NCBI GenBank assembly: GCA_964036195.1
Contig: OZ038457.1
Location: 4,064,635 to 4,128,634 of the forward strand
Direction: 5' to 3'
From: Sphaerolaimus hirsutus
Lineage: Eukaryota; Nematoda; Chromadorea; Monhysterida; Sphaerolaimidae
Length of the DNA: 64,000 nucleotides
The position numbers were made by a program, and so were the translations under genes. The number at the start of each line of letters is the position of its first letter. Position 1 is the first letter of the stretch. Positions 9,851 through 60,161 of the stretch are shown one piece after another. The notes under the pieces are model-generated. The model saw only the letters and a program-made list of their open reading frames with translations. It was not told the DNA's origin and searched no databases.

Positions 9851-12800
9851 GCAAAGATAATTGGACAGGTGAGCACCAGCGACAACTGGGCTACCTCTGC
9901 AGCCTGAACATGCAGATCAATACAACATTTTAAAAACGCTGGTATTCGATAGAAATGCACAGAAAACTGCAGAGATTCACAAATATATTATTCAATTTTG
10001 AAAAGTTTATCAATTGCATACTTCACAACGTTGACATTGACAAATGCGGTGGATTTATGGCGGTTGCGAAAATGGTCCGGGTGTGAAATGGGGCAGCCGA
10101 GTCAAATGGAAATGATGCGGCCATAGGTTTCAAGCCGGTCGAAGGGCAGCACCAAGTAAAAAATTCAACACTCCCGACGCCACTTTCGGGCAGCCCGTTT
10201 TGTTGTTTCATAAATTATCAATATAAGTCGACAGAATAAATAAATTCAATCATAGAACAAGCCATTGTCGTCGCACTAATTGTGAGATTTTAAATTTTAG
10301 TGAACTCATCAATCAGCCTTGAACGCATTTGAGTTTACTGGAATGAATTCTTTTTACTTTCCGTCAACTGTAGTTGATTGCAGTAATCTCAAATGCCAGT
10401 TGATTTACGAGTTTACTGGCAGTGTGTGCAGCGTCATTTGAACACACCCCCAATTAAAAAATCACTGCAAAATATGTAAATAACATCCACATATCAAAAT
10501 ACCTAAACAATAAATCGGGCTGCCCGACAAAATCTTATCGGGCAAACTAAATCCCGCCCAACATCAGCGGCGAGCGCGACTGCAGCACGCCCGACGGGCT
10601 ATTTGTGTCAAACACGTGATTGGCCGTCGATCCGCGCCGGGCCAAAGTACACGCACTCGGGCGTGATTTTCAATTTTGGGCAACCGCGTCGCCGCCGGGC
10701 CGAAAGTGAAAGTCACGATCGCAAAAAATCGCGTCGCCGCGTCGCTGACAAAAATCGCGTCGCGGCGGCGCGGCAAATTCGGATCGGGGCGGGGATGGGC
10801 GGCAGAAAAATCATCGTCCATTTTAGTGCGAAATGCACTGGAAAAGCCGGTGGATTTGATTTGAGGGATTTGACGCTGTCGCAACGCTGCGCGGTAAAAT
10901 CGACGCGATTTCGTCGATAACCGGGGCCACACGATGCGAGATAAAACAAAGTAAACACAGGGCTGGGAACCCTTTCAAATTCGCTATGGGTGCGCACTTT
11001 TCGGCACCTGTGTGTGTATGTGCGAGTGAGTGTTAGCGAAACCGCTGCCAGTACAGAAATGTGTACAGATTCCGTAGTTAGACAGATGGGCGATAAGACA
11101 TCAGGTTTGAGTTTGCACCTGTTGAGTGACAAGAAATGTGACAAGTATTGGGAGATTGGGAACAAAATGTCAACAAAAATGCATTTCACAGTTCAGCCCA
11201 ATTTTTGTTTATTTGTCAGAATATTTGTAGGCTTTCTTAATTCTTGATCTTGACACTTTTTCACTGGGTAAGGTGTTTAATGATACCCATCAGTGCAATG
11301 TTTTGAATAAGTTGTATAATAAAAATGATAAAATCTTATTACGAATATTTTACTCAAATTACATCAATAGTGAGAGCAATGTAATGTGAAGATTAGTGAT
11401 GTAAAATCACCATGGTGATGGCACCTACCGCCAGCACCAAAGGAAAAAGTGCCTTGGTGCTTGGTGCTAATGCTGATGATAAAAGCGCCATGGTGCATTT
11501 GGCACTGATACCATTTTGCTGTGGCACCATTGGAATTTGGCACCAAAAGTTAGAAAAGCACCATGGCACTTTTGGCTCTTGGAGCCAAAGTGCTGGTGCA
11601 TTTTACATTACGAGTGAAGTGCCACAAAAATTCTTGGCACTACGATTCAGACATAATATAGTAGATTCCATTGTAAAGTGCCCAATCCCTAGACAAGAGT
11701 CCCAACAACAGATGTCTAACGAACGCATGTCCAACGGACAATGATAAAGCCAAACCTGCTCAGTTGCGGCCGGTCGCAAGTGCCCGGTGACTGGACGCGG
11801 CAGGCAGAGCAAAGTCACCACCGCGACGCGTATATATTTGTGCCCCCGTTTTTATTGACAAGGCAGATGACAGTAAAATGGGGGGGGGGTCCGCCCGGCG
11901 TGTATTCAATCCCGCATGCGGCAGCGCCGCGGCTCAATAAAGTAAATAGTACAAAACTTGTGTAAACAAGACAGGTAGCTCAGGTAAGATCGTCGGAGCC
12001 CCGGTCGCCGCTGAGCATACACACACGAGTCTTAATGGAAGGAAGGCAATGTCTAAGAGTCGGTAGGAATCGACTGCAGTTTGGACTGAGGATTGTGAAA
12101 TGCGCACAGAGTTATGGTGATAAAGCAATGGATAAATGCCATTTGGTCGACTCGACAGGCGCCAGTGATCTAAATTTCTCAATTTTAGAGCACCGTGAGA
12201 TTATTAAGCGAATGTTTACGAAAAACGGGTGCAGCGCGGAAGCTGGCACGGCGATACTAATGGACTACTTATGTGATTGTCAAACCGAAAGCCGCGGGGC
12301 TGCAAATATCATCACACACAGCGGCGCGGCGGCACACATTGGCAGCAGCTGCGTCGCGGCGCCGGCCGCCATCACCGAGCTGCACGGCCATTCCAACCCC
12401 CCCCCCCCCTTGGAGGGGAGTTCACAGCGCGCGAAATAAGTAGAAGCGGGCACTGATTTCTCGTCTCAGCGTCTGCGCGCGCCGCGGCGGCTGTTAGCTC
12501 AGGCGGCAGCGCGGCCGCTCTGCACAGCCGCTTAACTGTTGTAGAAGCGGGCCGCAGCGAGAGTTGCTTACAGCGCGGGCCCCGCTAACTATAAGCGGTC
12601 GCGTGGGCGGCGGGCAGACGCGCCGCCGGCAACTGGGCAAGGCGGGGAGAGCTATCGTCAAATCGTCATTGAACGATTCGTCACTTCCGCAATGGTCACT
12701 TCCTAGATCGCGTTCATGCCGTTGTGCACGCACCTGGACGGAGGTCTTATTTGCACACTTCTAATCAAAGAATGTGTAGCGCGTGCAATTTTTATCAGTT

Positions 12801-13548
12801 ATCTTAATTTCTATAAATTAAACTTTTATGAAGGTGTGCAATGCGGCTGACGATGCTGCGGCATAAACTAGTTTTACTGGCAAGGTGTAAAAATATTCAG
12901 CAATATATGATTATCATTTCTGTAAATGTGACATGAATTTTGATGATATGGATTATTCAGTCAACTGACCAATCATCACATGACCATTCAAAACATGACC
13001 ACTTGATTCGTGACGAATAAGGAAAACAACTCCTAGAGAGAGAGCCGAGTTATGATTGCACATCAGGGCCGCATCGAGCTAACAGCAGCGGCAGCCCGAA
13101 CGCCTGTTGTAACGCGCGCCGCACAGCAATCACAGTGACAGCGGCGCTTCTCCCCCCCCCCCCCCTGCCGAGGCGGCGCAGCAGATGCGAATATAATAAA
13201 GTCTGGGTGGAAAGTGATGCGGCGCGACTGCTGCCGCCCCGTGTAGCCGAAATATCACTGCACAAATCACGGGGGCCATAAACCTTTGTGCCGCGGCGGC
13301 GCCAGAGCGGCCAAATGAAAGTGTCCTGGTAGGGCGCGCATCACACGGCGCTGGGCAGAAGTGATGACTGGGGTTTGAGCGGAAAAAGATGTGATAAACA
13401 ATTATCACCGACCAGTTTGCTTCCATGAGCTATCAATTTATACCTCAAATATGGCACAAAATTTCAAATTCGAAAATATTGGCTTATCATTTTCCTACTA
13501 CCACTTTATCGGCAGTGCCCTACGAAGCCCTACACACTGCGGGGGACA
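9851..13548. other. Intergenic DNA with several CpG-rich patches
   Basis: It holds the hAT-like element 11394-11613, a TCGGGC dyad at 10512-10552, CpG-rich patches at 10560-10920, 12200-12760 and 13050-13350, and G or C runs at 11880, 12400 and 13150. No gene is seen. Confidence 0.6.
11394..11613. mobile_element. hAT-like element with GGCACC/CCATGGTG words
   Basis: The ends are TAGTGATGTAAAATCACC and GGTGCATTTTACATTACGA. The flanks GTGAAGAT and GTGAAGTG agree at 6 of 8. Its words use CACC and GGTGC where the sister elements use CGCC and GGCGC, the form expected if CpG sites had decayed or if the word drifted. Confidence 0.75.
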
Positions 13549-13556
13549 GGAGGGCA

Positions 13557-14252
13557 TAGGGTTGGCCGATGTTTTTTTTTAAACGTTTTTTTTTAAAACG
13601 TTTTTTTATTAAAAAAAACATGACATCCGAAATGTTTTTTTAAAAAAAAAAACATCGGCCAAAATTTTGAGTACTAAGCACTAGGTATTTTGCAAAATTT
13701 TTGCGCGCAAGCGCGCAATTTCACACACAAATTGACATTGGTGGTTGTTTTCATTGGTTTTGTTGCATTTTTAGTATCAAAACATCCATTTCTCTGTGCT
13801 ACCATGGGTGAATAAGCCGACATATGTTGCTGTAATATATAACATTGAGGTAATGTGCTTCCATGTACCTCCACAGTGTGTAACTTCACTCCCAAAGTAA
13901 CAACCTCCTTTTATAACCTTGTTTGATCACTATTCCATGCCAAACTTTACCTGAAGTCACGAACATTCGACTATAAGGCGATATACGAACGATATGTCGA
14001 CAAAAAATGGATATTTTTGACACAAATCACCACTTATAATGCTATCCCATGGCTCCACAGCCATTATATGGCCATATTTAACATCACAGAGTATTGCCAC
14101 TGTCTGATATACCTATATATGTTGACACTAGGTCATATCTGGGAGCTTTTAAAAAAAACGTTTTTTATTTTAAAAAAACATCGAGTTAAAAAAAAACGTT
14201 TTTTTTAAAAAAAAACAACGAGTTAAAAAAAAACGTTTTTTTTCCAACCCTA
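13557..14252. mobile_element. hAT-like element with AAACGTTTTTTTT words
   Basis: The termini are TAGGGTTGG and CCAACCCTA, with a perfect target duplication GGAGGGCA (13549-13556 and 14253-14260). Words of AAAACGTTTTTTTT and their complements lie at both ends (13568-13650 and 14148-14242). The middle is unique and non-coding. The terminal repeats resemble those of the GAACC element but the word is different. Confidence 0.92.
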
Positions 14253-14553: not shown

Positions 14554-15781
14554 CATGCCCTATTCAATCCGCACCAGCCCAGCCCTAGAGATGCATCCAA
14601 AATTTTGAGTTAAACCCAGCCGATTTGAGAGAAAGAGTGTTCAACATTTGGCCGCGGCCGCAAAAGCATGAGTGCCTTGCCGCCCAAACGCACATGTGCT
14701 GTAAAGATGGGCACTATTTACGTGTAAACACAAAGAAATCAGGGTACACAGGGAATATACAACACAAAAATACATAAATACATAAGAGCTGCCGATCAGT
14801 GGGAAAAGTACCCTACAGCGACGCATTACCAGTCGCTTGTATTGAGTTACTCATCTTGGACAAATCACAACAATAACAGTAAACAACAAACATCCGCTGC
14901 GCCCAAAGAAGACAGTTGTCTTGGTATATAAATAAGTCATCAATTATTTGGACTCTGCATCACTTCACAACTTTGACAGTTGACAACTAGAGAAAACATG
15001 ACAGTTCACAACTAGAAATATGAAACTTCACAAGTGCTAATACCACACTTGACAACCAGATCCAACCAAATATTTGCGCTCACTTGACAACTAAATATTC
15101 CAACCTTCACAAGTAAAGTATCAAATTCACGCTCACTTCACAACCAACATATTATTTATATTCCAACGTTCACAAGTAACAATATGATATCCACGCTCAC
15201 TTGACGAGTTCATATTTATGTTATTCCAACTTTCATGAGTAAATGACCCCTACAACTATGTAACAGATGCCACATGCACACGTCTGTTTTCATTAATTGT
15301 GCAAACATTGTAGCAGTATCAAAGGCAACTCCCAATATGTACAATCTATAATGCACACAATGTTATGTGCCACATGCGATGCAAGATCATTTCCTGTCTT
15401 GTCAATTTGGTTTCAATCAAATATGTCAATCAATCAGGCGACAAAAAACGCATTAAGATTTCTGAATTTTCAACTTGGTATGATGTGCTATTGAGAATCA
15501 TTTGCATATTTGGTCATGATGGCTGAAGGTTTTGGTAGAATCGATGAGCTTTTGCAAGGCTTGTTGACCAAGAACAAGCCAGTGCTTTTCTCAAAAGTAA
15601 CAGTCATGTCGCTCATGACACATCCCTATAGGACAAAAAAGCCACACGTCTGCACACGATTTCCAGCGCAACGCCCCGCGCACACTATGGATCTGTCTGC
15701 AACTATCGCGGATGCTATTGCTTTATAGAATGCACCTTTCTTCTGTAGTCATGCACCTTTTCTACTGTACACATATTTATT

Positions 15782-17110
15782 TACCATATTTGCTCGAATA
15801 ATCCCCCTGGGGGATTTTTATTTCGTCAAACATTTTTGAGGGGGGAACTATTTGAGGGGGGAATTATTCAAGGGCGGAATTATTATTTTGCCAAAATTTC
15901 GCCAAAACATACCGACATTCGAGTGAAATTTCACCAATTTCAGGGTGGACATTAGGGTTCAAACGGGATTGACTTTTCGGGATCGGGATCGGGATTCACT
16001 TTTTGAGCTTTCGGGATCGGGATCGGGATTGGGGTTTCGGGATCGGGATCGGGATTGGTTTTTTGAGATTTCGGGATCGGGATCGGGATTGGCCGGGATT
16101 GGGGTCACGGGATCGGGATTGGGATTGGCATTTTTCCGGGATCGGGATTGGGTTCTAGGGATAGATTTTGGCCATTTTTCTGGCATTCACAGTTGTTCAT
16201 AAAGGTCTCAAAACACTGTTGGATGCCAGAAAAGTGGCATAAAATTGACGCTGGGGGTTTGCATGCACATTTTTGCATGCAAAAACGTCATTATTTCACT
16301 TTTTATAATTTCCACTAATTTTTCTGGGATCGGGATCCCGGACTTGGGAGTTTCTCGGGATCGGGATCGGGATTTGAAAATTTTCGGGATCGGGATCGGG
16401 ATTGGTATTTTTGGATTTCGGGATCGGGATCGGGATTGGGGTTTCGGGATCGGGATCGGGACTGGTAAATCCCGGAATTTCATGGGATCCGGGTTCGGGA
16501 TCGGGATCCCGTTTGAACCCTAGTGGACATACCGATATTTGAGTGATTTTTTTTTCTTCAAAAATTGGTGTCTGTATCTAGGGAACAGGGTGAGATATCG
16601 AGAAAATTTTTTTTTTTATGAAGAACTATATATGCTTATATCAGACCTGCACCATAGGTGGCGTAAGTGCTTGTGCGCTTGTGAATGTCACAAGCAGAAT
16701 TTTTGGTGTCACAAGTGGAAATGTCACTGTCACATTGTGACATTCACAAGCATGTATTTTAAAAATGAGAATGAAATCTCAAAATCAGCTCAAAATCGCT
16801 ATAATTTGCTCCATTTTGTCAATTTTCACCTATATAGTCACTATTGTCATCTATTTAGATGGTTATATACCATACTTTAGCCAATTTTTTTCTTATTTAT
16901 AGCAATTTTGAAATTTTTGGCTCTCTGCCAACTTCACATAGGGGCTCCAATAAAAAGGTGTCACAAGGAGAAATTTTGGCTAATGTGAATGTCACAAGCA
17001 CAAATTGGGACCTTGCGCCGCCTATGACCTGCACCTAACTCATTTTTTGTCACTTTGGTTTTTACCGACAGTCGGAACTAGATGCCTCAACTATTCAAGC
17101 AAATACGGTA
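15782..17110. mobile_element. CCGTATT element with GGGGGGAATTATT words, split by a hAT-like element
   Basis: The ends are TACCATATTTGCTCGAATAA and TTCAAGCAAATACGGTA, and the words GAGGGGGGAACTATTTGAGG and similar lie near the left end. It is interrupted by the GGGATC element 15953-16522 with target duplication GTGGACAT. The right half (16523-17060) is unique DNA with CACAAG/GTGACA words. Confidence 0.85.
15953..16522. mobile_element. hAT-like element with GGGATC word arrays
   Basis: The termini are TAGGGTTCAAACGGGATT and GTTTGAACCCTA, with a perfect target duplication GTGGACAT (15945-15952 and 16523-16530). Arrays of GGGATCGGGATCGGGATT occupy 15968-16155 and 16325-16515, the same strand on both sides. 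The terminal repeats match those of the GGTCCC element at 35905-36664 but the internal word differs. It is inserted into a CCGTATT element. Confidence 0.95.
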
Positions 17111-17583
17111 TATGTTTATATATTTAAGCACTAATGTAGCATGCAAATAATGAATGTGATACTATATGAAAGTAATTGTCAAAGTTGTCAAGTGAACGTG
17201 GATATCATTTTTTACTTGTGAAAATTGGAACATAATATGAAGTAATTGCAACATAATATGAAGTTGTAAGTGAGCGTAAATATGATACTTTACTTGTGAA
17301 GGTTGGAATATTAAGTTGTCAAGTGAGCGCAAATATTTGGTTGTGACCCACTTGTCAAGTGAGCGGAATCACTTGTGAAGTTTCATATTTCTAGTTGTGA
17401 ACTGTCATGTTTTCTCTAGTTGTCAACTGTCAAAGTTGTGAAGTGAGCATGGCCCATTATTTGTGTTTTTTTGATCAAATATTCATAAAAATCACGGATG
17501 ATAAAGATTGAAGGCTCTTAAAATATTTATGTACAAAACGTTGAACGAGTAAAAGACGTAGAAAAACTGGTGGCACTCCCACA

Positions 17584-18073: not shown

Positions 18074-18833
18074 TACCGTATTCCCTCGAATAAAGCCCGG
18101 GGGAGTTAATCGAGTGAGAGGGGTGGGTCAGGGGTTTAGTAGGGGGGGGGGGTTACCCCCACCCCCCAAATCCGCCAGCTATCTATCTATCCCAGAGGCA
18201 AATTTTTTGGCTACTATCCCCTAACCCCCCCCCAAATCGTCCAGCTATCTATCTATCTAGAGCGATTTTTGAAAAATTTTTTCGCTCAAAATCGCTAATT
18301 TTGTACCTTTTTATAGCTTTTCACCTCCAAAATCGCTAGTTCATGTTCATTATCGCCTATTTTGGCTATATATGTGCTTCTATACTTATTTTTAGCCATT
18401 TTTCACCTACTTTTAGCGATCTTTCCCCCTTTTCTTCCTTCTATACCTCGGAAAACCCTATATATTGAACCCCCGCGAACCCCCCCCCCTCAGAAAATTT
18501 TTCAGCTATCTATCTCTCCGGAGGAGCGATTTGCTATCTATATGAACCCCCGCGGGGGTCCAAATCTACAAAACCCCTGGGGTGGGTGGGTACAAGTCAG
18601 TTTATAATCAGAATTCTAGATGGACTTTCAATTGATTGTACATAACTGGAATGGATTTTTGAAAGGATATTCCAATATAAAAAACCACACCTTAACATAA
18701 ATTAATTAAACTAAACCTAAATACCTAAACATAAATTAAATTCCAGTTCATCAGCAGACAGAGATCAATCTTTGTCCTCAGTTAAGTGATAAGACAGGCG
18801 TTTTAAAGGGGTCTTATTCGAGGTGATACGGTA
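18074..18833. mobile_element. CCGTATT element with CAGCTATCTATCTATC words
   Basis: The ends are TACCGTATTCCCTCGAATAA and TTATTCGAGGTGATACGGTA. It contains GGGGGGGG/CCCCCCC tracts and four blocks of CAGCTATCTATCTATC. Similar TATC-word blocks occur at about 31010-31165 and 41280-41620, in introns of WDR55 and EFHD. Confidence 0.8.
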
Positions 18834-21092: not shown

Positions 21093-21234
21093 ACACTTTT
21101 TTATCACACAGCCTTTTTCTAAAATGCAGTCATATACGAAATTTTCACACAAATGCAAAATGATAACAACAAAAAATGGCGCGTGCCCACCTCTAGGGGG
21201 TCATCGGGTCGAGCGACTGTAGTGTGCAAAGGGT

Positions 21235-22015
21235 GTGTTCCTGAATCGTCACTCAGTGAATTGTCACTTTTTGAATGGTCACTTACTGAATGATCACTCG
21301 CCTTAATGAACACAGATCTGTATTGTCAAAAACCGTATGAACATTTGCACGAATGGTCACAACATATTTGTGGGTATCGCATGCGTATGCGAGTGCTTTG
21401 TGTTTCACACCTGCCTAATAAAGTACTTCCACCAGCCCACTGTGCTTTCAGCGTGGGCACCTTTGTACATTGGAGATTAATTTTAAGTATTTCCACTTTG
21501 CCACTAAACAAAAGATTATCCTTATTTTCAACCGGGGTCATAAAAAAACGTTATTTTTTCACAAATTATAATTGGGGTTGTTAAAAATTAAATGGTTAAA
21601 GGGTTGTTTTTTGTTGTTGTAATTTCCAAAAATCAGAATTGTTAAAAAACGTTTTACCATAGTTTATACAAATACATACATTTTTTACTGAGAATTTATT
21701 TATTCTCTCTATGTTTACAATAAAATATGTTTACAAATAAAAAAGTAGAATATAAGGAACACTGTTTTCACTGAATCTGAAATGCAGTGATAATCAATTT
21801 TTCAATACTAAAAAAGCATGCCGCAAAACGTAAATACATTGTGTGCACATGGCAGGCGGCATTTCCTTTAATGACCAGTGACAATTCTTGACCATTCATA
21901 CATTGACAACTCAGTCCATGTGCATACAACAACAATTGCGGCTCAGTACACATGCGGAACAGGCAGTGACGATTCAGGAACTGACAATTCAGGTAGTGAC
22001 GATTCATGCACAAAC
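21235..22015. repeat. Inverted GAATNGTCACT / AGTGACNATTC word blocks
   Basis: Left block (21235-21362): GAATCGTCACT, GAATTGTCACT, GAATGGTCACT, GAATGATCACT. Right block (21870-22010): AGTGACAATTC, AGTGACGATTC and similar, inverted. The DNA between is unique. It is probably a decayed foldback element. Confidence 0.65.
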
Positions 22016-38717: not shown

Positions 38718-38941
38718 GGGGCAGGCCTGACACGCACATCTGCCGATACGCACATTTGCCCGTTTTTTTCACTTGACACTTTTTCAAGTGATTTTCAGAT
38801 GAGTGAAGTGAAAAAAGTTGCGCAATGACATACGTGAACTTTTTTCACTTCACTCATATCTGAAAATCACTTGAAAAAGTGTCAAGTGAAAAAAACGGGC
38901 AAATGTGCATATCGGGCAGATGTGCGTAACAGTGCACCCCC
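38718..38941. mobile_element. Foldback insertion present only in duplicated block copy B
   Basis: 224 bases framed by a perfect 8-base duplication ATCATAAT (38710-38717 and 38942-38949). Two arms of about 100 bases pair with each other (CGCACATCTGCC, CACATTTGCCCG, GTGAAAAAAGTT and so on). Copy A has the empty target at 35517-35524. Confidence 0.93.
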
Positions 38942-40343: not shown

Positions 40344-43274
40344 TCACGCGAAATTCGCCTTAGTAGCCAAAAACTGTTCCTTCCTATTCCTCCTATCAAT
40401 TTCCATCTGTTTCCTAGACTCCTGTTCAGCCTTAATCTCCTCCTCAAAGGAGCTCCCTTTGGCAACTCGTTCAATTTTGGCCTGAAAAAAGTTCCTGGCG
40501 CCCAAAACTCCGGTGGCGGACACGTCGACTTCGGCGAGGGAGGCGAGCTCGGCCATGCCGCCCTGGTCGATGCACAGGTCGCCCGCGGCCGCCTTGCGCA
40601 CGATCATAAGGAACTGAGGGGGGGGGGGGGGTAAATTGAGGGGTCTTTTGGGGGGGGGGGGGTAAATTGAGGGGGGGTTTTTTGGGGTGGGGTAAATTGA
40701 GGGGTCTTTTTTTGGGGGGGGTGAGATTGAGATGTACTGAGATTGTGGGAGATTTTGTGTGATCGAAAGGAGAGCGTCACCAGAAAAACTGGACATCGAG
40801 TCGACAAAAATTGAAGTTTTTTTCAAGATGTAGAAAGCAGAGAATGGGTATCATCTTGGGCGAAAACTGGAGCAAAATTTTCAAAAAATCCCTCCAAATA
40901 GATGTGTAGATTTCTCGCACAAACAAGTCACTTCTCAAACTTTTTCATCTTTCGCTCTGAAACTTGACGACTTTTTGTCGAAATCGGGACCGTGGGCTAA
41001 AATGGACCCTCAAACCTACACCCCCCTCAAAAGTAAACCCCTCACCTCTCTCATGGACACTCTATTATCATGATCATCATCCACCTGCTTAATCATCTCC
41101 TTGAGCGCCAGATGAGTTTGGGGGGCGCCCAATTTCTCCATAAGCAGCTTTAGGTCGTTGAAGTCCAGGAACCCGTCGCTGTCAGAGTCGTAGCTGAAAG
41201 GGGGGGGGGGTAGATTCAGTGAGAGATATTGAGCATTGGGAGGTTGAAGTTACATATAAGTATGAACAGGGATCTTTAATGGGGGCTGGGGGTAGACCCC
41301 CTCCCAATCGGCCAGCTATCTATCTACCCCGGAGGCTCGCTATCTTTTGAGCGATTTTTCTCCAATTTTCACTCAAAACCGATTAATTTTTGTCCAATTT
41401 TCACCTTCAAAATCGCTATTTTCGGCTGTATACCTTGTTTTACTTATACCTATTTTTGTACATTGCCATTTTTAGCTACCTAATTTGGTACCATATGTGC
41501 TTTTTTATATACCCATTTCTCACATATTTTAGCGATTTTCCCCCGTTTTCTGCCTTGAAAAACCCACCCCCAATTTCAGAGGGTTTGCTACCTATCCAAC
41601 CCCGGAGGTCAAAGCGCCAATACCACTGCTACAAACTCTGATCAAAATTTTATGACCGTTACCTGTTGAACGTATCCTCAAACTGTTTGATTTGCTTCCG
41701 CGAGAATTCGTTAAATTCGCTGTATATGCCGCGCTGGGGCGGCGGCGCTGACGGGACGGGTTTACCTGCAGAAATTTTATGCAAGGCCGTAAATTTTTGG
41801 CACCGTTTTATCCATTTCAAATACATATAATAGGGAACCGGCCAAAAACCAAACCCCAAGTATCAAATTAGTTGGTGGATAACAAAATCAAATCTTGGAT
41901 ACCACTGGGGCCAGCACAATATCATGCAAAATGCCATGTAGCATGAAATTTGTCAGGTAAAATGGCCGTTCAAATGTGTGATAAATTTTGAATAAAGTTT
42001 TACACTTTATAAATATGACGTTGACCAATGTTGACCGAGAATTTCGAATTTTGTCAAGTGTTTCCTACGTGATAACTTGTGAGTCTTCCAAGATAAGTCA
42101 AGTAGAGTGTTAACACAAAAGAGAAATACCTGTCCCCCACAAGTTTACTGCTCACTTGACATCACTCGCAAACAACCTTACCCCTCACATTAGGGTTGGG
42201 GAACCGAACCGACCCGAACCGAACCGAACCGAGAACCGAGCACTATTTTGGAACCGAGAACCGGAACCGAGCTTGAGAACCGAACCGGAACCGGCACTTA
42301 TACCCGGAACCGAAGTAAATACCCGAAAGAACCGAAATTTTCTAGGAAACTTAAAGTTTTTAAACAGCGTTTTCAACACCTACATCTAAGCCTTTAAACA
42401 GCAGCTGAACATCTTGGTGCGTGTTCAGAATTGCAAAATTCATCTGTTTGCAAAATGATTGCGCGGGAGCGTGTAATTTCACATATACTCCAGCGACATT
42501 ACACCTTACAATGAAATCTACCATATCCCACCTGAATAAAAGAACAAACATAACAAAATTTCATTATATTTATCAAATCGCGTACTACATAAATACATTA
42601 AGTTTCCTCCAGAAAAAAATACCAGTACTCATTTACTCGTGTACTTTTTGAAAGTACGCGAGTACAGAAAACGTATATGTTTGCTTTTACACTTTTTTAA
42701 ATATTAGTATTATTATAACAACGCTGAATTCTGCATTCTACCATGAAATAATAAGCTGTGATATGCTCCTGTAGTATGAAATTTCCAACCAATGTAATGT
42801 ACTTACACATGTAAACTTGGGTATATTGTTTTTCTGTTGTTCAGCCGATTTTTACCCGATACCCGGTAATTTTATTACCCGGAACCGAAATTTTGATCAT
42901 TTTAGAACCGAAAGAACCGAACCGGAACCGAGTTTAAGAACCGAACCGAGAACCGGAACCGAAAATTTTCAGGAACCGAGAACCGATACCCGAACCGAAA
43001 TCTTTTGGAACCGAGAAGCGGAACCGAAAATTTTGAAATTCCCAACCCTACCTCACATTAAACCCCAAAACGCGCAACCCCCCCCCCCAAACCGACCCTC
43101 ATTGATATCCTGCCGCCTATGCAGTCTATCCTTCAACTCATCGCTGGCGGCACGATCAAACGACTCAATTTCCGCCGCCGCGGCGCCCGGCTGCAGTTCG
43201 TTCTCCCGCCGCTCGTCCATCTCGGCGGCGAGTTGGCGCCGCGCCAACTTGCTCATCAACTCCGCGTCCGCCAT
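40344..43274 (-). CDS. EFHD2: EFHD1/EFHD2 (swiprosin)-like EF-hand protein, complete, 4 exons
   Basis: Exons in transcript order: 43274-43097, 41765-41663, 41193-41046, 40613-40344; 699 bases, 232 residues plus stop. All junctions keep phase (GAGG|gtcggt, AACAG|gtaacg, GAGAG|gtgagg; acceptors tgcag, ttcag, ctcag). Family landmarks are the N-terminal LHRRQDINEG, then FNEFSRKQIKQFEDTF, EF-hand loop 1 DSDSDGFLDFND (residues 96-107), the linker MEKLGAPQTHLALKEMIK, EF-hand loop 2 DDDHDNRVSMRE (132-143), FLMIVRKAAAGDL, and the C-terminal helix FEEEIKAEQESRKQMEIDRR. Swiprosins bind calcium and actin (EFHD2) or act at mitochondria (EFHD1); one ancestral gene is usual in invertebrates, so the EFHD1/2 split may not apply. 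Position 12 of loop 1 is Asp rather than Glu. A hAT-like element starts 10 bases beyond the stop codon. Confidence 0.95.
40617..40735. repeat. Tandem GGTAAATTGAGGGGTCTTTT array in EFHD intron 3
   Basis: Four to five units of GGGGGGTAAATTGAGGGGTC with variable G runs lie directly after the exon 4 acceptor on the plus-strand map. The array reads as Pro-rich frames that are not genes. Confidence 0.8.
42191..43050. mobile_element. hAT-like element with GAACC word arrays, in EFHD intron 1
   Basis: The termini are TAGGGTTGGG and CCCAACCCTA, with a perfect target duplication CCTCACAT (42183-42190 and 43051-43058). GAACCGAACCGAGAACCG-type words fill 42202-42330 and 42885-43030; the middle is AT-rich. 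It accounts for most of EFHD intron 1. Confidence 0.95.
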
Positions 43275-46200
43275 GCGAGAATAGAAGCGCACTGGGGTTG
43301 GTGCAATTGGCACTGGGTTGGTGGTTGGGTGATATTTAGATGGGTGGATGGGTAATATTTAGTGGGTGGATTTATAGAATGCGCGCGTGTGGAAAAGTGG
43401 CATGAAGTGGTAAGTGGTAAGTGAAACTAAGTGACAAATAAACTTATATTGACAAATTGTTATTATTTAGGAATCTACTTTACTGTATGCGTTTGTAGGA
43501 CAGCTGAAGGGCCTTCAAGAAGAGATAAGTGATGAAAACAGTTGGAAGCTGAAAAAATATATACAAGCTAACAAAAAAATGTTTGACAAGTAGTCGTTTT
43601 CACCCAAATTTCGCATACCGTACGAGAAAAATAAAAATGGCGCGACGGCTAACGAGATAGACAGCTGAAAATGTCCATATTTTTGCGAATAGAAAATTCA
43701 GAAGATTCAAAAATTTCAGCACAATACCTATCTATCGTTAAAAGGGTACCGGGTACCCGGTACCCTACTGAACCCTAAACAAATGCCCAGCTGGCAAATA
43801 TCTCAAATTCTCGTCAACTCGAGAACGCGCTCTCAAAAGCAAATAAAACGAAATATTCAACTAGCGCAGGTAGACAAGAGACAACAAAACAGCGAATAGC
43901 GGTCATTCGCACTGGGGCGACGCGGCGGCCGCTAGTGACGCAACGGCGGCACGAAAATGCGCCGCGGCGGCGCGAGCAAATAGACGAGCGGCCGGGCGGC
44001 ACGAACGAGCGCCCGAGCGACACTTCAGCGCGGCATAGACTGATAAAACAATCAGAGCGTGGCAGCGCCGCTGCGAACGATGGAACGCCGGTGGCGGAGA
44101 ATATTGGACTGTTTTGAAATTTTTTGTTTTTTTAAGAGTTGGCAGCTTTCCAAGGTAGTGAAAGACATAAAATGGTGTCGATAGACATGCAGCAATGATT
44201 GTGTTGTTTCGCGTTCGCAAAAGATTTTAAAAGCCGCAGCCAAACTGCTAGTTGGCTGGCAGCGATAAAAACACGGATTACGAATTGAATCAGAGCATTC
44301 TATGCAGTCATAACATGGATTCCTACTGTGTAAATGTAGTGATGTCTAAACAAATAAAGCAGTCAGAATATTATTTACCTGCAATATAGCAGCGCGATTT
44401 GAAAATTTCATAGCGAGCATTGCAATTTACAAGGTGTGGACATTAAATACGGCCGATTCCATAATGGCGCCACGAATACCAGAATTTTGGGAAACTCATA
44501 AATCTATTTTCGACACATTTGAGTTTACTAGAATGAGGAGTTTGTCAACTACTATTGACGAAGTTTGAAAATGATTCATTAGTTAAACTCAAGTGTGTTT
44601 ATCAGTTTGCGAAGTTTCTACGCGTAAACTAGTTTTGCGAGACGGAAGTTTTCTAGCCCGACACTTATTTCGGGTAGCCCGAATGCCTATATATCGTCTC
44701 GGGAATTATAGTTTGCCAACACACATTTTAAAATCACATAAATTCGGGCAGAATATAACTCCCAATGACATCAATAGACATGAAATGACAAACTGCCCGA
44801 AAAAAAGCGTCGGGCAAATTAAATTCAATCGTTTTCGATCATTTTCAACGCTACAAATCACTTTTTTTGAGCGCAACATCGATAAAACGTCGCATGATCG
44901 AGTGATAAATATTTTCGGGTCGGGTCAAGTCACGCGGCGACCGCTGAATCAACAAGTGGGAGCGTATTACGCAGTGAATCACGTGCAAAATTCCCTATTG
45001 CGGTGTTTTAGCGGCAGCTGAGTCAGCCGGCGGCCGGGTTTTTTTTTGCCGCGCGTCGAAAATTGCCATTTGCGCTGCGCAAATAAATATCATAATCACA
45101 GGGAAACGGACAAACAAAGGGGAAATGTCGTCAGAAAGTACCGCTGGTGGTGAAAATGAGAGTGAAAATGGTGTCTTTGATTACCCCCCCCCCCAATTGA
45201 ATGTTGAGCGTGTTCTTTTTCGCACAAAAACGTCATAAAAAACGTGGTGTGTCCCAAAAGACAAAAATAAATTTATTATGAATTTTACTGAAAACTCTGA
45301 TATAATAACAAAAAACTCCTCCCCTTGAAAAATCCCCGGTCAGAAAGATCTGACCGAAAAGAACTTCGCTGGGGACTTAGGTAATTACTCGATTAACTAT
45401 GAAGTGTTAACCAAAGTCCCCCAAAATGTTCCCAAAAAAACTCCCCCATCAAAATCGTTTTACAGAAAATTTTCAACACCAACACCATATCCCTATCAAT
45501 CCACTACCACTTTCACCCAAAAATCACAAGAAACCGACGCATTTAATCAATTAAAATGACACACATTTTGAAACGATTGAGAACACATCAAATTGAAAAA
45601 ATTCTTAAGTACGCTGCGATAGCTGCGCACCGCACCTGGTCCCAAATTCGATTGGAACATTAGGCGCACAGTTAAGGCGCCAGACGAGCAGAGTTGTTAA
45701 AAGTACTAAACTTTTCAAAAGTAAACCTAAACGTAAAGTATTTGTTTTTACACACAGGTGAGTCCAGAAAACGTAAAGTATTTATTTTGTACTTTTACTC
45801 ATGACCAGGGTTGGCAAGATCCAAGAAAAAATAATAACAATAGTTTTCGAAATTGTTCAGCATCAAATTCGCTAGTTAATGTGTGTTTGCCTATTTTTAT
45901 GCTATTTTGGATATTTTGTCTATATTTTTAGCTTTTCTCTCATTTTATTACCTTTATGCTTTGAAAAAAAACGATGAAAAAGCCTGTTTGAAATACGTTT
46001 TCTGTACTCGCGTACTTTCAAGCGAGTACCGGTATTTTTTTCGGGAGGAAACGTAAACGTACTTACGCAGTACTCGAGTATCCGTATTTATCGAGTAAAC
46101 GTAAATACGTTTTAACAACTGTGCAGACGAGCGAGTGAGCGGACGAAATGACACTAGTTTTCAACCGGAAATTCTCTGAGTCATAAATCAGCTTTGAACA

Positions 46201-46419: not shown

Positions 46420-47951
46420 ATGCCCGCCCCATTCGGCAAGGAGCTGCCCCTCGGGGTGCTTATATGCACTTTTTTCATCCCTGTGGGTTTACTGGTAATT
46501 GGTTATGTATAGCGCCATGGCGCTGCCGCCATTTTAGGGCGCTTCTATGGCGCTTTTCAATAACTAGCTGGGTTGTAAATAAATATTGAGTAGAGTGTCG
46601 AATAGTTTGGGCAAGTTTCGTATCACTGGTGGGTGAGTGAATTCGAGCGTGAAAGTTATTTCAGAAAATGCATTCTCTCTGTCTCTAGCTGTCTGTCTTA
46701 TCCAGCGACGATAAGACTTTTGTGTAAATATACGAAAAATTGAAACGCCGACAACTGAAATATGTAAATATGACGCGTTGTGGATTGTGTGCGGGATGGG
46801 AGCCAGATGCGGGTTGCGAAATGCATTTTTACCCCCTGCCCCCGTTTACCCCCTTTACAACAGCAATGAAGAAGCCGATTAATGGTATTCCCCATATTCC
46901 CTGGAATAACCCCCTGAATAACTCCCTCTGTTAAACCGCCAGTATGTAGGCAAATTAGGTATACTCGGCGGACAGCACACATACATAGTATGAAAACCTA
47001 CCATAACCCATCTGAATAATGAACCAAAAATTTTAGTTTTTTCATCGTAATATTTTGTTTTTTACTATGGAATAATTAATAACGAAATTTATCACAAAGT
47101 TTTTACCGTATTACCTCGAAATACCCCCAGGGGGTATTTCGAGGGGGGGGGGTTAATTCAAGGGGGGGGGGGTTATTCGAGGTAATACGGTATTCATTAA
47201 ATTATGGTAGGTTTTCATACTAGGTGTGTGCATACATTGAACGCAAATTTTTTCCATCTGCTGTCTTTTTTGCATGTGGTTGTTAAAACGTATTTATATT
47301 TACCCGAAAAATACAGATACTTGAGTACTGCTTAAAAAGGTTGAGTGCTGAACTTGCTGAGATACTTGAGTGCTGAACGAAAGTACCCATACTTCTCAAA
47401 ATTTCTCAAAAATACTAACTTTTACATTTTCCGTGTAAAAAGTATTTTTCTCATGTATGTGTACTCACGAGTAAAAGTAAAAAATCACGTTACGTTTTCT
47501 GTACTCGAAAGTGAGTTAAAAACAAACACGTCACGTTTACATACACTTTGAAAAAACTTAATTACTTTTAACAACTGTGCTCTTTTCACACACCACACGC
47601 AGCCACTGGGCCTGTACCTGCACACAAATAAATGCGAGCAGGTGCCGGTTCCGCAAGTGGAAAAGTTAAGAGTAAAGGATTAAGAGTTGAGTAAAATGAT
47701 AAATGATAAGTTAAGAGTAAAGTTAAAAGTTAAGAGTTGAGTAAAATCATTTGTCGTGTTACTCAACTCTTAACTCTTATCTTTACTCATAACTTGTCAT
47801 TTGTCATTTTACTCAACTCTTAAGTTTTAACTCTCAACTTTTCCACTTGCGGAACTGGCCCCAGAAAGAGCTCCTGTGCCTGCTGCTCTACTTCCTGGCG
47901 TGGGGGCCCGGCTTGGTCTACGGCTGCATGGTGCTCCATGACAAGATTTGA
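46420..47951 (+). CDS. PMP3/UPF0057-like two-helix membrane peptide, 2 exons
   Basis: Exons 46420-46506 and 47865-47951 give 57 residues with a stop, the size of PMP3/UPF0057 proteolipids (about 50-60). Exon 1 encodes a polar start followed by a hydrophobic helix (LGVLICTFFIPVGLLVIGY). Exon 2 encodes KELL followed by a second helix with the family-like AWGPGLVYGCMVL. The family places a Pro in helix 1 and a PG pair in helix 2, both seen here. Such peptides sit in the plasma membrane and are linked to ion homeostasis and stress in fungi, plants and nematodes. The donor could instead be 46494 (GTAATT), giving 53 residues, and the loop between helices is shorter than usual, so a small middle exon may be missing. 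The exon 2 acceptor is formed by the end of a foldback element. Confidence 0.5.
46508..46564. mobile_element. Degenerate GCGCCATGGCGC element in PMP3-like intron
   Basis: A 57-base stretch from TATAGCGCCATGGCGCTG to GCGCTTTTCAATAACTAG that resembles the ends of the TAGTGATG elements. It lies directly after the exon 1 donor of the PMP3-like gene. No target duplication could be seen. Confidence 0.45.
47104..47192. mobile_element. 89-base CCGTATT element in the PMP3-like intron
   Basis: The ends are TACCGTATTACCTCGAAATA and TTATTCGAGGTAATACGGTA. Only two or three GGGGGGGTTAATTC words lie between, the smallest complete copy seen. Confidence 0.85.
47278..47580. mobile_element. CAGAGTTG-type element in the PMP3-like intron
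   Basis: A third copy with the ends GGTTGTTAAAACGTATTTA and TTTTAACAACTGTG and the same GTAAAAGTAAAAAAT words inside. The left end is damaged and I see no target duplication. Confidence 0.65.
47640..47862. mobile_element. GCCAGTTCCGCAA foldback with AAGAGTTGAGTAAAATGA words, touching PMP3-like exon 2
   Basis: The ends are GTGCCGGTTCCGCAAGTGG and CCACTTGCGGAACTGGC, the same as at 30571-30787. The internal word AGTTAAGAGTTGAGTAAAA is different. The final CCCCAG serves as the exon 2 acceptor of the PMP3-like gene. Confidence 0.88.
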
Positions 47952-54378: not shown

Positions 54379-54906
54379 AATGACTGATTTCAGGTTTCAA
54401 AATCCTGTGATGTTAATTGGTCCCGTGTCGGGCTAAAATTCCCATGTTCTCAACGTTTATATGAACTTATATTAGGTATTTATTATCTATTTAAATTAAG
54501 TAGGTACATTACATTTGTCCCTTGCATTGTCTTTGAATCGTGCACTGAAGTATTTTATATGTTCTCCGTTTATGAAAAAACAACAACTGTGAACAAGCTC
54601 AACGATGTAGATTCATGTAAAAACTCGACCGGCAAGAAACGAGTCAGTACTAGTGATGGAAAAGCGCCAGGAAAAATGGCGCCAGGCGCCAATGGCGCCA
54701 TGGCGCCATTCAAAATAATGGCGCCAGCGGCAAGATGGCGCCAGAGAAAATGGCGCCAGGCGCCAATGGCGCCACGGCGCCATCTGAAAAAATGGCGCCA
54801 GAAACAATGGCGCCGGGCGCCAAAATGGCGCCAACAATAAAAGTCACCATTTTAGCATGTATATTCTAACATGAGCATTTTTTTGTTAAGGACAATATGT
54901 TATAAC

Positions 54907-56425
54907 TAGTGATGTAAAAAGCGCCATGGCGCTTTTGGCATGCGAGCGCCAAGCGCCAATGGCGCCACAGCAAAATAGCGCCAAGCGCCAAAAGCGCCAT
55001 GGCGCTTTTCTGGACAATGGCGCCAAGCGCCAATGGCGCCAGAGGATGTTGGCGCCAAGCGCCAATAGCGCCAGCGCCAAAAAGTTTTGCTGCTCATAAA
55101 GTGCAACCATGCTAATGCAGTGCTAGTTACATATTTGTGTGAGAAGCAAGATAAAAATAAGTCAAATCGAGTTAACTTTTCTTTATCTGATGTTATTTTA
55201 CATCTGAGAGTTGGGTATTTCTTCTAATAGAATCGCATACCTCCAAAAGAACTACACCTACAATAGAACGGCAGGCTTTAGCACGTTTGCGTGCCCAAGA
55301 AAACAACAAAATGGCACCCCCCTCAATATAACGGCAGGTAGAAATTACCGTATTTGCTTGAATAGTACCCCCCCTTGAATAATTCCCCCCTCGAATAATT
55401 CCCCCCTGTAAGACGAGTGAGGAAATAATAATACCCCCCCCCCCTCGAATAATCCCCCCTTAAGAGATTTCCTCAATTTATTGTTCCCAATTTGAACAAA
55501 AATGGCACGTTTTTGTGTGAATAAAGCATATTTCATCAAATAAGTTGATAGAAACATGGTTGAAATTGTTGACGAAATAATAATTCCCCCCTCGAATAAT
55601 TCCCCCCCTCGATTAGTTCCCCCCTCAAAAAAGTCTGACGAAATAATAATCCCCCAGGGGGATTATTCAAGCAAATACGGTACGTTGGAAGATTCATGGT
55701 TGTTTTCACATTTGGTTTTGTTTGAATTGATTCTGTGATGTTGAATGTTGTTTATGTTTCATAAAAACACTATGTTCAAATGAAGAATGTGTGAAAAATA
55801 TTGGTGAAAAAGTAGAATGGCAGCCTCCAACAAAAAGGCACCTCCAATAGAATGCCATGTAAAAAAGTTGATGAAAACATAGAATGACGCTTTTCTATTC
55901 AAAGAAATACGGTAACAATGGCGCAAGCCATCTCGAAAAAAGTGCTTAGATTTTTATAGATATTTTACGTCGAACGTGCATTTAAACATCGTTCGTCAGC
56001 TCGTGAGCAAGCTTTGAATTGGGATGGGAATCATTAGGCCCATTATTCCGGAAAAGTTTTGGATATCCTTGCACGGAAATGGTTTACAAAATAAGCAAGT
56101 ACGTAGATTTGTTCTTCCTGGAATACGCTTAAACACATTTACTCATGTAAATTATGCACACAAGGTCTTTTTACATAAAATAATGATATATATTTTTGAA
56201 CCACTGGGCGCTTTTTTGGCGCTTTTTCAAATGCTAGCGCCAAGCGCCAATGGCGCCACGGCATCATAGCGCCAAGCGCCAAAAGCGCCATGGCGCTTTT
56301 CCGTACCACAGCGCCAAGCGCCAATGGCGCCACAGCAAAAAGGCGCCAAGCGCCAAAAGCGCCATGGCGCTTTTTGCTTTGGCGCTAGCGCCAGGCGCCA
56401 GCGCCATGGCGCTTTTACATCACTA
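54907..56425. mobile_element. Inner hAT-like element with GCGCCATGGCGC words
   Basis: The termini are TAGTGATGTAAAAAGCGCC and GGCGCTTTTACATCACTA, with a perfect target duplication GTTATAAC (54899-54906 and 56426-56433). Words of the type GCGCCAAAAGCGCCATGGCG fill 54917-55082 and 56205-56417. The middle is unique except for a CCGTATT element at 55346-55682. It is nested in the outer TAGTGATGG element, giving three levels. Confidence 0.93.
55346..55682. mobile_element. CCGTATT element nested in the inner TAGTGATG element
   Basis: The ends are TACCGTATTTGCTTGAATAG and TTCAAGCAAATACGGTA. CCCCCC/TCGAATAATT words lie at both ends, with about 100 unique bases in the middle. It is the innermost of three nested elements. 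Confidence 0.85.
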
Positions 56426-57349
56426 GTTATAACAGTTACCTAATGAATAAAAACAACAACATCATAATCAAGGAACCTATAGAATACATTTATCAAGTCA
56501 AATGTCATTTGTGGTTATAAACAATTTACAATTGACCCTGAAGTGACATGAGACAGCATTGAATTGGTGATTTGTACAGAAAATCTATTTTATGTTGAGT
56601 TGCCACATATTTACACCACCTTCAAATGAAAATTTTGTGACATGTAAAAATGAAATTAGATAGGGTAGTGTTTAGAGTAGGACAGAAGACAATAAGAATG
56701 CATTGAGAATGATGTTTCATATTTTGTATTTTGTATAGAAAGAAAATTGACTAGTTGTTTATCTGCTACTACCATTATCACAGATTATTACATGCTAGCA
56801 AGCATAGATGGAAGTTATCACACTAGAGTGTAACAAAACTGGTGTAAATGCACTAGTGTCATTTTTTTGCCATGCCAAATGAAAACATTCTGGTGCTAAT
56901 CTCAGCGTGGGGGCATAGTGTTGCTGTTTATGTGGAATAAAAACAATGAAAAGCAAGCCAAACTTGTAATTCAAGCAAAACAATGACATGGTTGAATATG
57001 CTAAATAATAAAATGATGTCAATCAGCAGATAAGGTACTTGTATATGGAATAATGTAAGCATTCATCGCGGCATTTTGGCGCCATTTCTGGCACCATGAA
57101 AAACAATGGCGCCGGGCGCCAAATTGGCGCCAGCAAAAATGGCGCCAAGCGCCAAGGGCGCCATGGCGCCATTCGAAATGATGGCGCCAGCGCCAAGAGG
57201 GCGCCAGAGAAAATGGCGCCAGGCGCCAATGGCGCCATGGCGCTGGCGCCCTTTGGCGCCATTATATGGCGCCAGCGTCATGGCGCCATTCCATCACTAG
57301 TCAGTACTCAGTGATTCTGGCGAAAAAACTATTAATTGCACGAAAAGTT

Positions 57350-57754: not shown

Positions 57755-59190
57755 TCATTCAATTGGAATCACAGCCCTGAAGAACTGGGCAGAAACCATG
57801 GATGTGTTCAAAAGTTCCCACTGAGCTTTTCCTTGTGAATTCTCATTCAAAACTTGGACATTAAGCCCTTCTTTGCTGGATCCATCACTATGAATGTACT
57901 CTCCATCAAACCAATACAGAGTGTTGTTCAATGTGACCATATTTCCTGCTCTACCAGGCCTCACCAGGGAGTAGGGTGTCAAAAATTTTTTTTTATGGAA
58001 AACGGAAAACGGAAAGGTAAAATTTTTTCACTTTATGGAAAACGGAAAACGGAAAGGTAAAAAAATTTCAAGTGCAAAAGTGAACTTTGATGTAACTGAA
58101 CAGTAAAAAGTATACTCAGCGGACTGCTAAGTACGTGTCCAAAATTACTTTTTTTGTGTTTTAAAAACTACTTAATTACATTTTTGTGTTTTTTTGCAGA
58201 TTTGGATACAGATAAAAATTATGAACGACACAAGAACCTGGTAGTTAAAAACACCATAGTGGAAAAAGATAAATACAGATTGGAAAAAATAATGGAAAAA
58301 TGCCAGAAAACTGAAAATCGAGCCAGAAAATGGAAAAATGGCCTGGAAAAATGGAAATGGAAAGGTAAAAAATTTTCAGCCGGAAAACGGAAAAATGGGC
58401 CGGAAAAACGGAAACGATAGGTAAAAAATTTTCAGCTGCCGGAAAACGGAAAACGGAAAGGTAAAATTTTTTCGACTGCCGGAAAACGGAAAACGGAAAG
58501 GTAAAAAAATCTCAGCTGCCGGAAAACGGAAAACGGAAAGGTAAAGATTTTTCCTGCGGAAAGGCGGAAACGGAAAACGGAAACAGAAATTTGACACCCT
58601 ACCAGGGAGTAAGTCACAGTATCCCATGCATTGGATGTAGGATTGAATCTGCATGCAAGCAGCCTCAATTAGTGGCTGTCATTCATGGATTCTTTTAAAA
58701 AAAGCAAAAGATCCAACAATGTTTGTTTTTGGAAGGGGGTATACCTAATTTAAAAAAATAGTCTGAATATGTGTGCAATGAAAAACCACATACAGATATG
58801 CTAGAATCGCATATTTCCAAATCATTTGTTATCATTTTTTTGTGGTTTGGTACTGTCAAAGTCATGTGCTGGCGGACTTTTTGATAATATATCCTAGGTA
58901 TATGAATTTTACGTCACCTATTTTGCACAATTTTGCTGTCACTTCAGTCATGTAAATGAAAATGTAGTGAAACAGCCTCACATGTCATGCAACAGGTCAA
59001 AAGTAGTTGCAAAATGTCAGTGGTGGTATTTAAACTGACTTTACACAGCTGCTGTACATCTTCCCATTGAAGATTCCACCGCAGAGTATCAGCTGACCCC
59101 TGTGCACAGCACATTTTGCCTGTACCCTGCCTTCTGGCAGAAATGTTTCAGTTTGCCAGGTCCATTCTGTGCCCATTGACTCAACAGATG
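57755..59190 (-). pseudogene. 3' part of a kelch-like gene, last exon split by a transposon
   Basis: Exon A, 59190-59058, reads through LPEGRVQAKCAVHRGQ and LILCGGIFNGK, a kelch-type strand with the GG pair. It ends in phase with exon B, which starts at 58663 (CRFNPTSNAWDTVTYSLV, the NxWxxV part of a kelch blade). Exon B is interrupted at 58601-57972 by a hAT-like element. It resumes at 57971 and continues with RPGRAGNMVTLNNTLYWFDG and further sequence to the stop at 57755-57757. Removing the element and one copy of the 8-base target duplication restores the frame exactly. Earlier exons lie outside the window or were not found. As assembled the allele would end inside the element, or would need it spliced out. 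Kelch propellers mediate protein-protein contacts, often in ubiquitin ligase adaptors; no BTB domain is visible here. Confidence 0.6.
57972..58601. mobile_element. hAT-like element with AAAACGG word array, inside a kelch exon
   Basis: The termini are TAGGGTGTCAAA and TTTGACACCCTA. The 8-base target duplication CCAGGGAG (57964-57971 and 58602-58609) is perfect. Inside both ends lie repeats of GGAAAACGG followed by AAAGGTAAAATTTT, about 25 bases per unit. The layout recalls maize Ac/Ds, whose TAGGGATGAAA ends are followed by AAACGG transposase-binding repeats. There is no transposase, so it is non-autonomous. It sits in coding sequence, which suggests a young insertion. Confidence 0.93.
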
Positions 59191-59329
59191 CTGTGTTAGT
59201 TCAGTAAATTTTCAACTGGATACTAAACAGCGGACACGCCAGGTCCGGCACCTAATTTCTGAGTCAGTGCAGGACGCCATATCTTCAGCTGTAGTGGGTG
59301 GATTTATTTGAAATTTTGAGATTATATAC

Positions 59330-60161
59330 CAGAGTTGTTAAAATACCGGTATTTTTGGAAAGCGTAAGCGTAAGCGTAAATACACTTTCCAAATTTTGAG
59401 TATGGATACTAAAAGCGTAAGGTATTTTTAAAATACCTAGGAAAGCGTAAAAAAAGCGTAAGCGTAAAAATTTTCTAGAAAGTGCTCCTGCTGTTGAGCA
59501 TGGGGAAACACCCTAGCTTTCACTTTTAGACGACTTTGTATATCATTTCCATTCATTTTTTCACATAATTTCATCAACACGATCACCACATAACAACACA
59601 ACTTCATCTAACTGGAACCCACTGTATTACCTTGAATTATCCAGCCCCCTTGAATTAACCCCATCCCCCCGCCCCCTCAAAATTGGCTCGGGAAATAATA
59701 AAACCCCCTCGAATAAGCCTCCCTCGAATTAACCCCACTAAAATTTTGCTGGCAAAATAATAAACCCCCACAGGGGTATTTCGAGGTAATACGGTAAGTG
59801 CTGTTGACGGAATCCATCGTCACCCCCAAAAATTCCTAGTGTGACGCCACGATATTGCAGGCGTCAGAATTTTAGCACAATTTGTACATGTGCCACCATT
59901 TTCAGTGTGTTTATGCACACACGCAGTAATTTTTTTGGTACGCATTGTCGTTCATATTGTTTTTTGTAGTTTCACGCTTTTTGAAAACCGTAAAACTGGG
60001 CCGTGTGAAAAGATTTTTACGCTTTTAGTACCCGGGTAATTCGGCCGGGAAAGCGTAATAAAGCGTACAGGTATTTTATGAAAGCGTAAGCGTAAGCGTA
60101 AGTATAAATACCCATTTACACGGGTATGTCGGGTAAGCGTAAATACGCTTTTCCAACTCTG
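59330..60161. mobile_element. CAGAGTTG element with AAGCGTA words
   Basis: The ends are CAGAGTTGTTAAAATACC and TTTTCCAACTCTG, with a perfect target duplication TTATATAC (59322-59329 and 60162-60169). The word is AAGCGTAAGCGTAAATAC rather than the AAACGTAAACGTA of its relatives. A CCGTATT element is nested at 59631-59796. Confidence 0.92.
59631..59796. mobile_element. CCGTATT element nested in a CAGAGTTG element
   Basis: The left end ACTGTATTACCTTGAATTAT is slightly decayed; the right end is TTTCGAGGTAATACGGTA. Words of CCCCCTCGAATAAGC type fill the interior. Confidence 0.8.

Follow-up and report, generated by a model that had tools for sequence, protein, structure and literature searches.

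Subterminal repeats are considered a defining feature of hAT transposons (PMC4890040). In Ac/Ds of maize, which has C/TAGGGATGAAA tips and 8-bp target site duplications, the hexamer AAACGG (CGGTTT on the opposite strand) is found within 200 bp of both ends and is bound by the transposase (PMC3260210). In Tol2/Tgf2 of fish, the two ends of Tgf2 contain 17 and 18 subterminal repeats, and the 50-bp end printed in PMC4890040 mixes AAGTA and TACTT. Hermes of the house fly also has 8-bp duplications, with the preference nTnnnnAn (PMC10368747, PMC10512250); its two ends contain 17 and 14 AAG[TC] repeats, those of the left end past 50 bp being judged dispensable. Short elements with hAT tips and 8-bp duplications that lack a working transposase, such as Ds1, Ds-l4 and Mar, have been described as well (PMC3260210, PMC3517528). 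Here we consider a group of similar elements in 64,000 nucleotides of the nematode Sphaerolaimus hirsutus (assembly GCA_964036195.1, contig OZ038457.1, positions 4,064,635 to 4,128,634; this whole stretch is the window, and all positions below refer to it). An earlier note, made from the letters alone, had listed twelve of them as hAT-like elements with perfect 8-base duplications, most filled with dense arrays of their own short word.

hAT elements with subterminal arrays are an ordinary, already known kind. The informative part is that four features meet here side by side: tips common to several elements, words private to a family, switches of one base through nearly whole arrays, and arms carrying their words on the same strand. 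We found no report of one-base word switches or same-strand arrays in the portions of the openly licensed literature at hand, and the passages on Ds1, Ds-l4 and Mar in the papers cited above do not report word switching between same-tip copies. We consider it probable that the window harbours several families of non-autonomous (miniature) hAT transposons, whose word arrays dock transposase and homogenise by exchange between direct repeats.

As in Ac/Ds, CGG is present in the words of four of the five elements with TAGGG tips (CGGGAT, CGGGAC, CGGTTC, ACGGAAA), the fifth, E2 (13557–14252), having AACGTTT. Unlike those of Ac/Ds, the words are family-specific and form clusters spaced 5–7 bp. In five elements they lie on one strand through both arms. 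The left end of E9 (45689–46123, plus strand) aligns with the left Tgf2 end of goldfish (PMC4890040) with 19 of 22 columns identical, one column being a gap, whereas its word and that of E13, which has the same left tip, are AAACGTA and AAGCGTA rather than the Tgf2 mixture. In contrast to Hermes, the arrays stay dense up to about 200 bp.

Target site duplications and affiliation

The window was scanned for pairs of tips that both follow YARNG, the hAT tip consensus, share their first five bases and span 150–3000 bp, the tips being set before duplications were counted. Exact abutting duplications were 4 bp long in 20 cases, 5 bp in two, 6 bp in one, 8 bp in eleven, and 7 bp or 9–12 bp in none. 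When the right flank was slid by 1–12 bp in either direction (24 controls), each control contained 0 or 1 exact 8-bp duplication. A chance origin of the duplications is ruled out, as both the slid flanks and the lengths of 7 and 9–12 bp yield 0–1.

The eleven hits comprise ten of the twelve listed elements and E15 (18129–18579; tips CAGGGGTTT, duplication GGGTGGGT), which was absent from the list. The remaining two, E6 (38718–38941) and E9, fall outside the tip scan, and their flanks, checked directly, agree at eight of eight positions; all twelve listed duplications are exact. The further matches at seven or six of eight bases, which the earlier note had also counted, carry little weight, since mismatch-tolerant counts are near control levels: 12 versus 0–4 in the controls with one mismatch, and 26 versus 6–21 with two.

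Insertion of two elements is proven by empty sites inside the window. The segments 34591–35904 and 37793–39330 align at 96.0 and 96.7% identity; E5 (35905–36664) is absent at 39316 in the duplicated segment, and E6 is absent at 35516. The segmental duplication (34591–35904 and 37793–39357, about 96–97% identical, with an apparent coding exon in each copy) serves as an internal empty-site control. An open reading frame next to it (33636–33998, minus strand) has weak WD40-type matches under the cut-off, and an assembly gap of 200 N (36700–36899) is next to E5. E11 (54907–56425) is nested in E10 (54651–57299), each having its own duplication.

The tips TAGGG, TAGTG, CAGAG, CAGGG and CAAGG are found at both ends of the eleven scanned elements; the note had held the first four of these to fit hAT. 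Its claim does not extend to E9, whose right tip, CACAG, is outside YARNG, or to E6 with its GGGG tips. An additional inverted-repeat element, E14 (16653–17026; flanks ACCTGCAC identical at eight of eight positions, word CACAAG), also fails the consensus with its CATAGG[TC]GGCG tips. E6 is not clearly hAT, because its GGGG tips are combined with a duplication of 8 or 9 bp (ATCATAAT); its superfamily is uncertain, and we presume that it might be Merlin- or MULE-like. For the other eleven of the twelve listed elements, a non-autonomous hAT identity is the best reading. The lengths of all elements, 220–2649 bp (the latter including the nested element), are in the short range of miniature inverted-repeat transposable elements (MITEs).

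Of the 24 sites offered by the duplications of these eleven elements and of E15, 14 carry the T of position 2 or the A of position 7, against an expected fraction of 0.289 (P 0.0024). A7 is seen in 9 of the 12 duplications and T2 in 5 of 12, whereas the Buster-type T4/A5 (preference nnnTAnnn, PMC3517528) is seen in 5 of 24 sites. The T2/A7 bias is a hint at the Hermes type and not a general Ac signature, since PMC10512250 contrasts nTnnnnAn with Ac. The 8-bp duplications, the YARNG tips, this bias and the Tgf2-like end of E9 uphold the proposed hAT affiliation. The piggyBac-like MITEs described in PMC2872659 do not match these elements. Of six pattern scans of viral contigs, four were empty; the other two, made with tip patterns, yielded 5 and 13 matches, all of them lacking the word array.

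Word arrays and one-base switches

Nine of the eleven hAT-like listed elements carry an array. On both strands together, CGGGAT occurs 35 times in E3 and CGGGAC 31 times in E5. In E8 (42191–43050, minus strand; tips TAGGGTTGGG, duplication CCTCACAT), CGGTTC, read as GAACC[G] on the plus strand, occurs 28 times, with arms to 143 and 169 bp. E12 (57972–58601, plus strand; tips TAGGGTGTCAAA, duplication CCAGGGAG) has 14 copies of ACGGAAA in 40-bp units, and E2 (tips TAGGGTTGG, duplication GGAGGGCA) has the palindromic word AAACGTTT, with 10 copies of AACGTTT. E13 has AAGCGT 16 times and E9 AACGTA 7 times; E10 has 30 GGCGCC and 53 GCGCCA, E11 43 GCGCCA, and the decayed E1 considered below 8 GCACCA. 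Compared with 300 first-order Markov sequences per element and word, all ten pairs exceed the Markov maximum (maxima 3–7), from 35 versus 7 in E3, 31 versus 5 in E5 and 28 versus 4 in E8 down to 7 versus 4 in E9, the weakest case.

The cross-table of words and elements is nearly diagonal, the words being almost private to their own families: inside the window, any given word has its copies mainly in a single element or in E10 and E11 together. The exceptions are GGCGCC, which is common to E10 and E11 and also occurs four times in E4 and twice in E7, and strays in E8 and E11. In sequence not belonging to the elements, the density of these words is 0.09–0.55 per kb. Random sharing of words among families, which the note had named as evidence against its own proposal, is thereby excluded. 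The array of one word that the note gave to most elements is seen in the nine carriers; word counts reveal no comparable array in three elements with hAT-like tips: E15, containing CTATCTA and C/G runs, E4 (33190–33623; tips CAAGG, duplication GCGCGAAT) and E7 (39909–40333; tips CAGGG[AC]CGTATCCAGG, duplication CCCCCCAA).

The arms were delimited in eight elements by splitting at the largest gap free of words, E2 being judged by word count. An array is present at both ends in all eight, although E9 has only two and five copies. The arms start 10–41 bp inward of the tips, and in 15 of 16 cases their far limit is at 84–223 bp, the exception being the right arm of E11 (507 bp), and the word-free core between them is 182–839 bp long. 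The arrays are subterminal, as had been proposed, occupying about 200 bp per end. This is close to the end length needed by Hermes (about 220 bp), Tol2 (200 and 150 bp), Ac (200 bp) and Tag1 (about 100 bp), as summarised in PMC10368747. Tandem Repeats Finder detects arrays in E2, E3, E5, E8, E10, E11 and E12, and none in E9 and E13; where two levels are resolved, words of 5–6 bp lie within units of 26–40 and 57–80 bp. CpG is contained in all words except those of E1 and E14, and a reading of it in terms of methylation is rejected, since CpG is not depleted in the window (observed/expected 1.04).

Where elements have tips in common, a single transition separates almost all words of one from those of the other. 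E3 (15953–16522, plus strand; duplication GTGGACAT) and E5 (minus strand; duplication ATGATAGC) have the same perfect 16-bp inverted tips, TAGGGTTCAAACGGGA, and similar cluster spacing. E3 contains CGGGAT 35 times and CGGGAC once, with arms to 196 and 192 bp and a word-free core of 182 bp, whereas E5 contains CGGGAC (GGTCCC on the plus strand) 31 times and CGGGAT not once, with arms to 183 and 214 bp. Even the word that begins 11 bp inward of each tip follows this difference. The words are nearly uniform in both elements, and the intervening spacers show visible variation. With words masked, the spacers of the two elements share three 10-mers (shuffle mean 0.19, maximum 3), six 9-mers (0.8, maximum 5) and ten 8-mers (3.0, maximum 11), which is weakly above shuffles.

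The same is seen in E9 (duplication CAGACGAG) and E13 (59330–60161, plus strand; tips CAGAGTTG, duplication TTATATAC, arms to 136 and 188 bp), which have the left tip CAGAGTTGTTAAAA in common and the right tips CACAGTTGTTAAAA and CAGAGTTGGAAAAG, respectively. AAACGT and AAGCGT occur 7 and 0 times in E9; E13 has 16 AAGCGT, no AAACGT and one AACCGT. E10 (tips TAGTGATGGAA, word GGCGCCA, duplication GTCAGTAC, split by E11) and E11 (tips TAGTGATGTAAAA, word AGCGCCA, duplication GTTATAAC) share TAGTGATG, and their ratios of GGCGCCA to AGCGCCA are 49:4 and 14:28. Since the copies inside one element are not independent, these counts describe joint movement of words rather than independent mutations. 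The suggestion that the words are amplified and drift is supported by the one-base switches at shared tips.

Word orientation, a proposed mechanism and alternatives

While the tips are inverted, the words stay on one strand through both arms in five elements. The ratios of forward to reverse copies in the left and right halves are 18:0 and 14:3 in E3, 2:15 and 0:14 in E5, 0:14 and 0:14 in E8, 4:0 and 17:0 in E12 (CGGAAA), and 7:0 and 6:2 in E13 (AGCGTA); in E9 (AACGTA, 2:0 and 3:2) the copies are too few to judge. Among the opposite-strand copies in E3, E5 and E13, one per element sits 11 bp from a tip. As E3 and E5 count as one case, the independent families with non-palindromic words number about four (E3/E5, E8, E12, E13).

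Longer matches behave in the same way. The 12-mers of the right arm that recur in the left arm do so on the same and on the opposite strand in the ratio of 62:0 in E3, 65:2 in E5, 41:0 in E8, 69:0 in E12, 12:5 in E13, 82:30 in E11 and 58:14 in E10, so that seven of nine elements have a same-strand excess; hence the arms are not plain long inverted repeats. The longest same-strand block common to both arms is 46 bp in E3, 34 bp in E5, 33 bp in E12, 38 bp in E10 and 36 bp in E11. Since exchange between inverted arms would yield the opposite strand pattern, this suggests exchange between direct repeats, for example by template switching when the gap left by excision is repaired. It also suggests that the uniformity of words comes from array homogenisation rather than from stepwise co-evolution of single sites. 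Three structures elsewhere in the window (4510–5045, 30587–30763 and 37609–37781) are inverted repeats whose arms consist of tandem arrays of 22-, 31- and 17-bp units; unlike in the hAT-like elements, these arms are inverted, fully so in 4510–5045.

A mechanism may be proposed as follows. Transposases from genes at other places would mobilise the elements in trans. A word of 5–7 bp, in short clusters recurring every few tens of bp over the terminal 85–220 bp or so of each end, would form a putative docking platform for the BED zinc fingers of the transposase, the inverted tips being the candidate cleavage sites. Direct-repeat exchange, whether by slippage or by template switching in gap repair after excision, could keep the word uniform across the arms, and one mutated word could supplant almost every other copy in an element without any change of the tips. 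Such a switch might found a new pairing of element and transposase. We infer binding by transposase from the position and extent of the arrays and from precedent; gap repair would be the cause of the uniformity, and new pairings its consequence.

A more tentative idea, which we find possible but rather doubtful, is that the word array is a recognition code that evolves as one unit, splitting same-tip elements into separate transposase clientele. If so, the replacement of one base in nearly all words of an array (about 30 words in two arms of about 200 bp), spread by direct-repeat exchange with the tips kept fixed, would let new specificity between transposon and transposase arise stepwise, and one window would show this in the pairs E3/E5 and E9/E13. 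With identical 16-bp tips and a one-base word difference, E3 and E5 form a natural allelic series, in which one may ask whether the words, and not the tips, choose the transposase.

Several observations weigh against the docking of transposase by the arrays, or against parts of this scheme. The arrays seem dispensable for some families, as E4, E7 and E15 lack them despite their hAT-like tips and 8-bp duplications. The internal subterminal repeats need not be essential either, since the Hermes mutant LEmut2, in which the left-end putative BED sites are mutated, keeps about 70% of its activity (PMC10368747). Words on the same strand are not expected of mirror-image binding sites. The same-strand 12-mer pattern is not seen in E2 (12:21), whose word is palindromic, and in E9 (0:0), and the contrast between E10 and E11 is a matter of degree and no clean switch. 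Fisher P-values on word counts overstate the evidence, as copies within an element are not independent. The complete nTnnnnAn is matched by only four of the twelve duplications. Finally, the window yields no sign of a transposase: it contains five open reading frames of at least 150 amino acids with a start codon and 81 stop-to-stop frames of at least 100 amino acids, and none of the latter has a Pfam match above the curated cut-off; hAT or BED families give no match at all in these 81 frames at E-values up to 0.1 or 1.

An alternative is that the arrays are neutral, being short tandem repeats grown by slippage in non-autonomous elements and hitch-hiking with the tips without binding transposase. 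Same-strand arrays in both arms, the two-level tandem structure in seven elements and the three otherwise similar elements without arrays fit this. We nevertheless regard it as unlikely: arrays are present at both ends in all eight measured elements, with the reservation made for E9, and the stop of 15 of 16 arms by 223 bp before a core without words would hardly be repeated unguided in unrelated families. The near-uniform words among variable spacers in E3 and E5 also speak against it. By contrast, arrays that bind transposase are favoured by the closeness of the arm extent to the end requirement of about 100–220 bp in Tag1, Tol2, Ac and Hermes.

The words could instead bind a host protein, such as a zinc-finger repressor or a DNA-bending factor, and a passage of PMC10368747 does suggest that a cellular factor may take part in Hermes transposition. 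A separate protein would be required for each private word, whereas binding of subterminal repeats by the hAT transposases has been reported (PMC3143072, PMC3260210, PMC4890040), and we give this variant little probability. A different superfamily that also makes 8-bp duplications, be it P, Merlin or one not yet described, could have converged on similar tips. Such an origin would agree with the lack of a transposase at hand in the window and with the GGGG tips and 8- or 9-bp duplication of E6. It is highly improbable for the group as a whole, as the YARNG tips, the T2/A7 bias and the Tgf2-like end of E9 all fit hAT. Non-autonomous hAT elements with transposase-binding arrays are hence the reading that we prefer.

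Other elements and the neighbouring gene

Strand assignments are given above for E3, E5, E8, E9, E12 and E13; E1, E2, E4, E6, E7, E10, E11, E14 and E15 have none. E1 (11394–11613) has the left tip TAGTGATGTAAAAT and flanks that agree at six of eight positions, and is probably a decayed relative of E11. E4 and E7, in opposite orientations, have 310 identities over 467 aligned columns and represent a single hAT-like family in diverged form. At approximately 47264–47579 lies what may be a decayed relative of E9.

An EFHD-like EF-hand protein is encoded by four predicted exons on the minus strand, from about 43290 to 40344 (gene 40344–43300). Among its best 120 of 159 homologues the identity is 41–60%, and those named to species are all from animals. 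E8 is situated between the first and second predicted exons, and E7 ends 10 bases from the stop codon.

Several further repeats were noted by eye. A larger element at about 14957–17452, with long inverted ends TCACTTCACAACTTTGACAG, TTCACAACT-like words and GCA on both flanks, encloses E3 and E14. A ACCGTATTTNCTCGAATA-like unit with G/C-run stretches ATTCGAGGGGGG recurs at about 15794, 33041, 47109, 54180, 55347, 57430 and 59790, and is apparently another abundant repeat family. A possible element at 21225–22015, where tandem arrays were detected, has inverted clusters of TGAATNGTCACT-like words.

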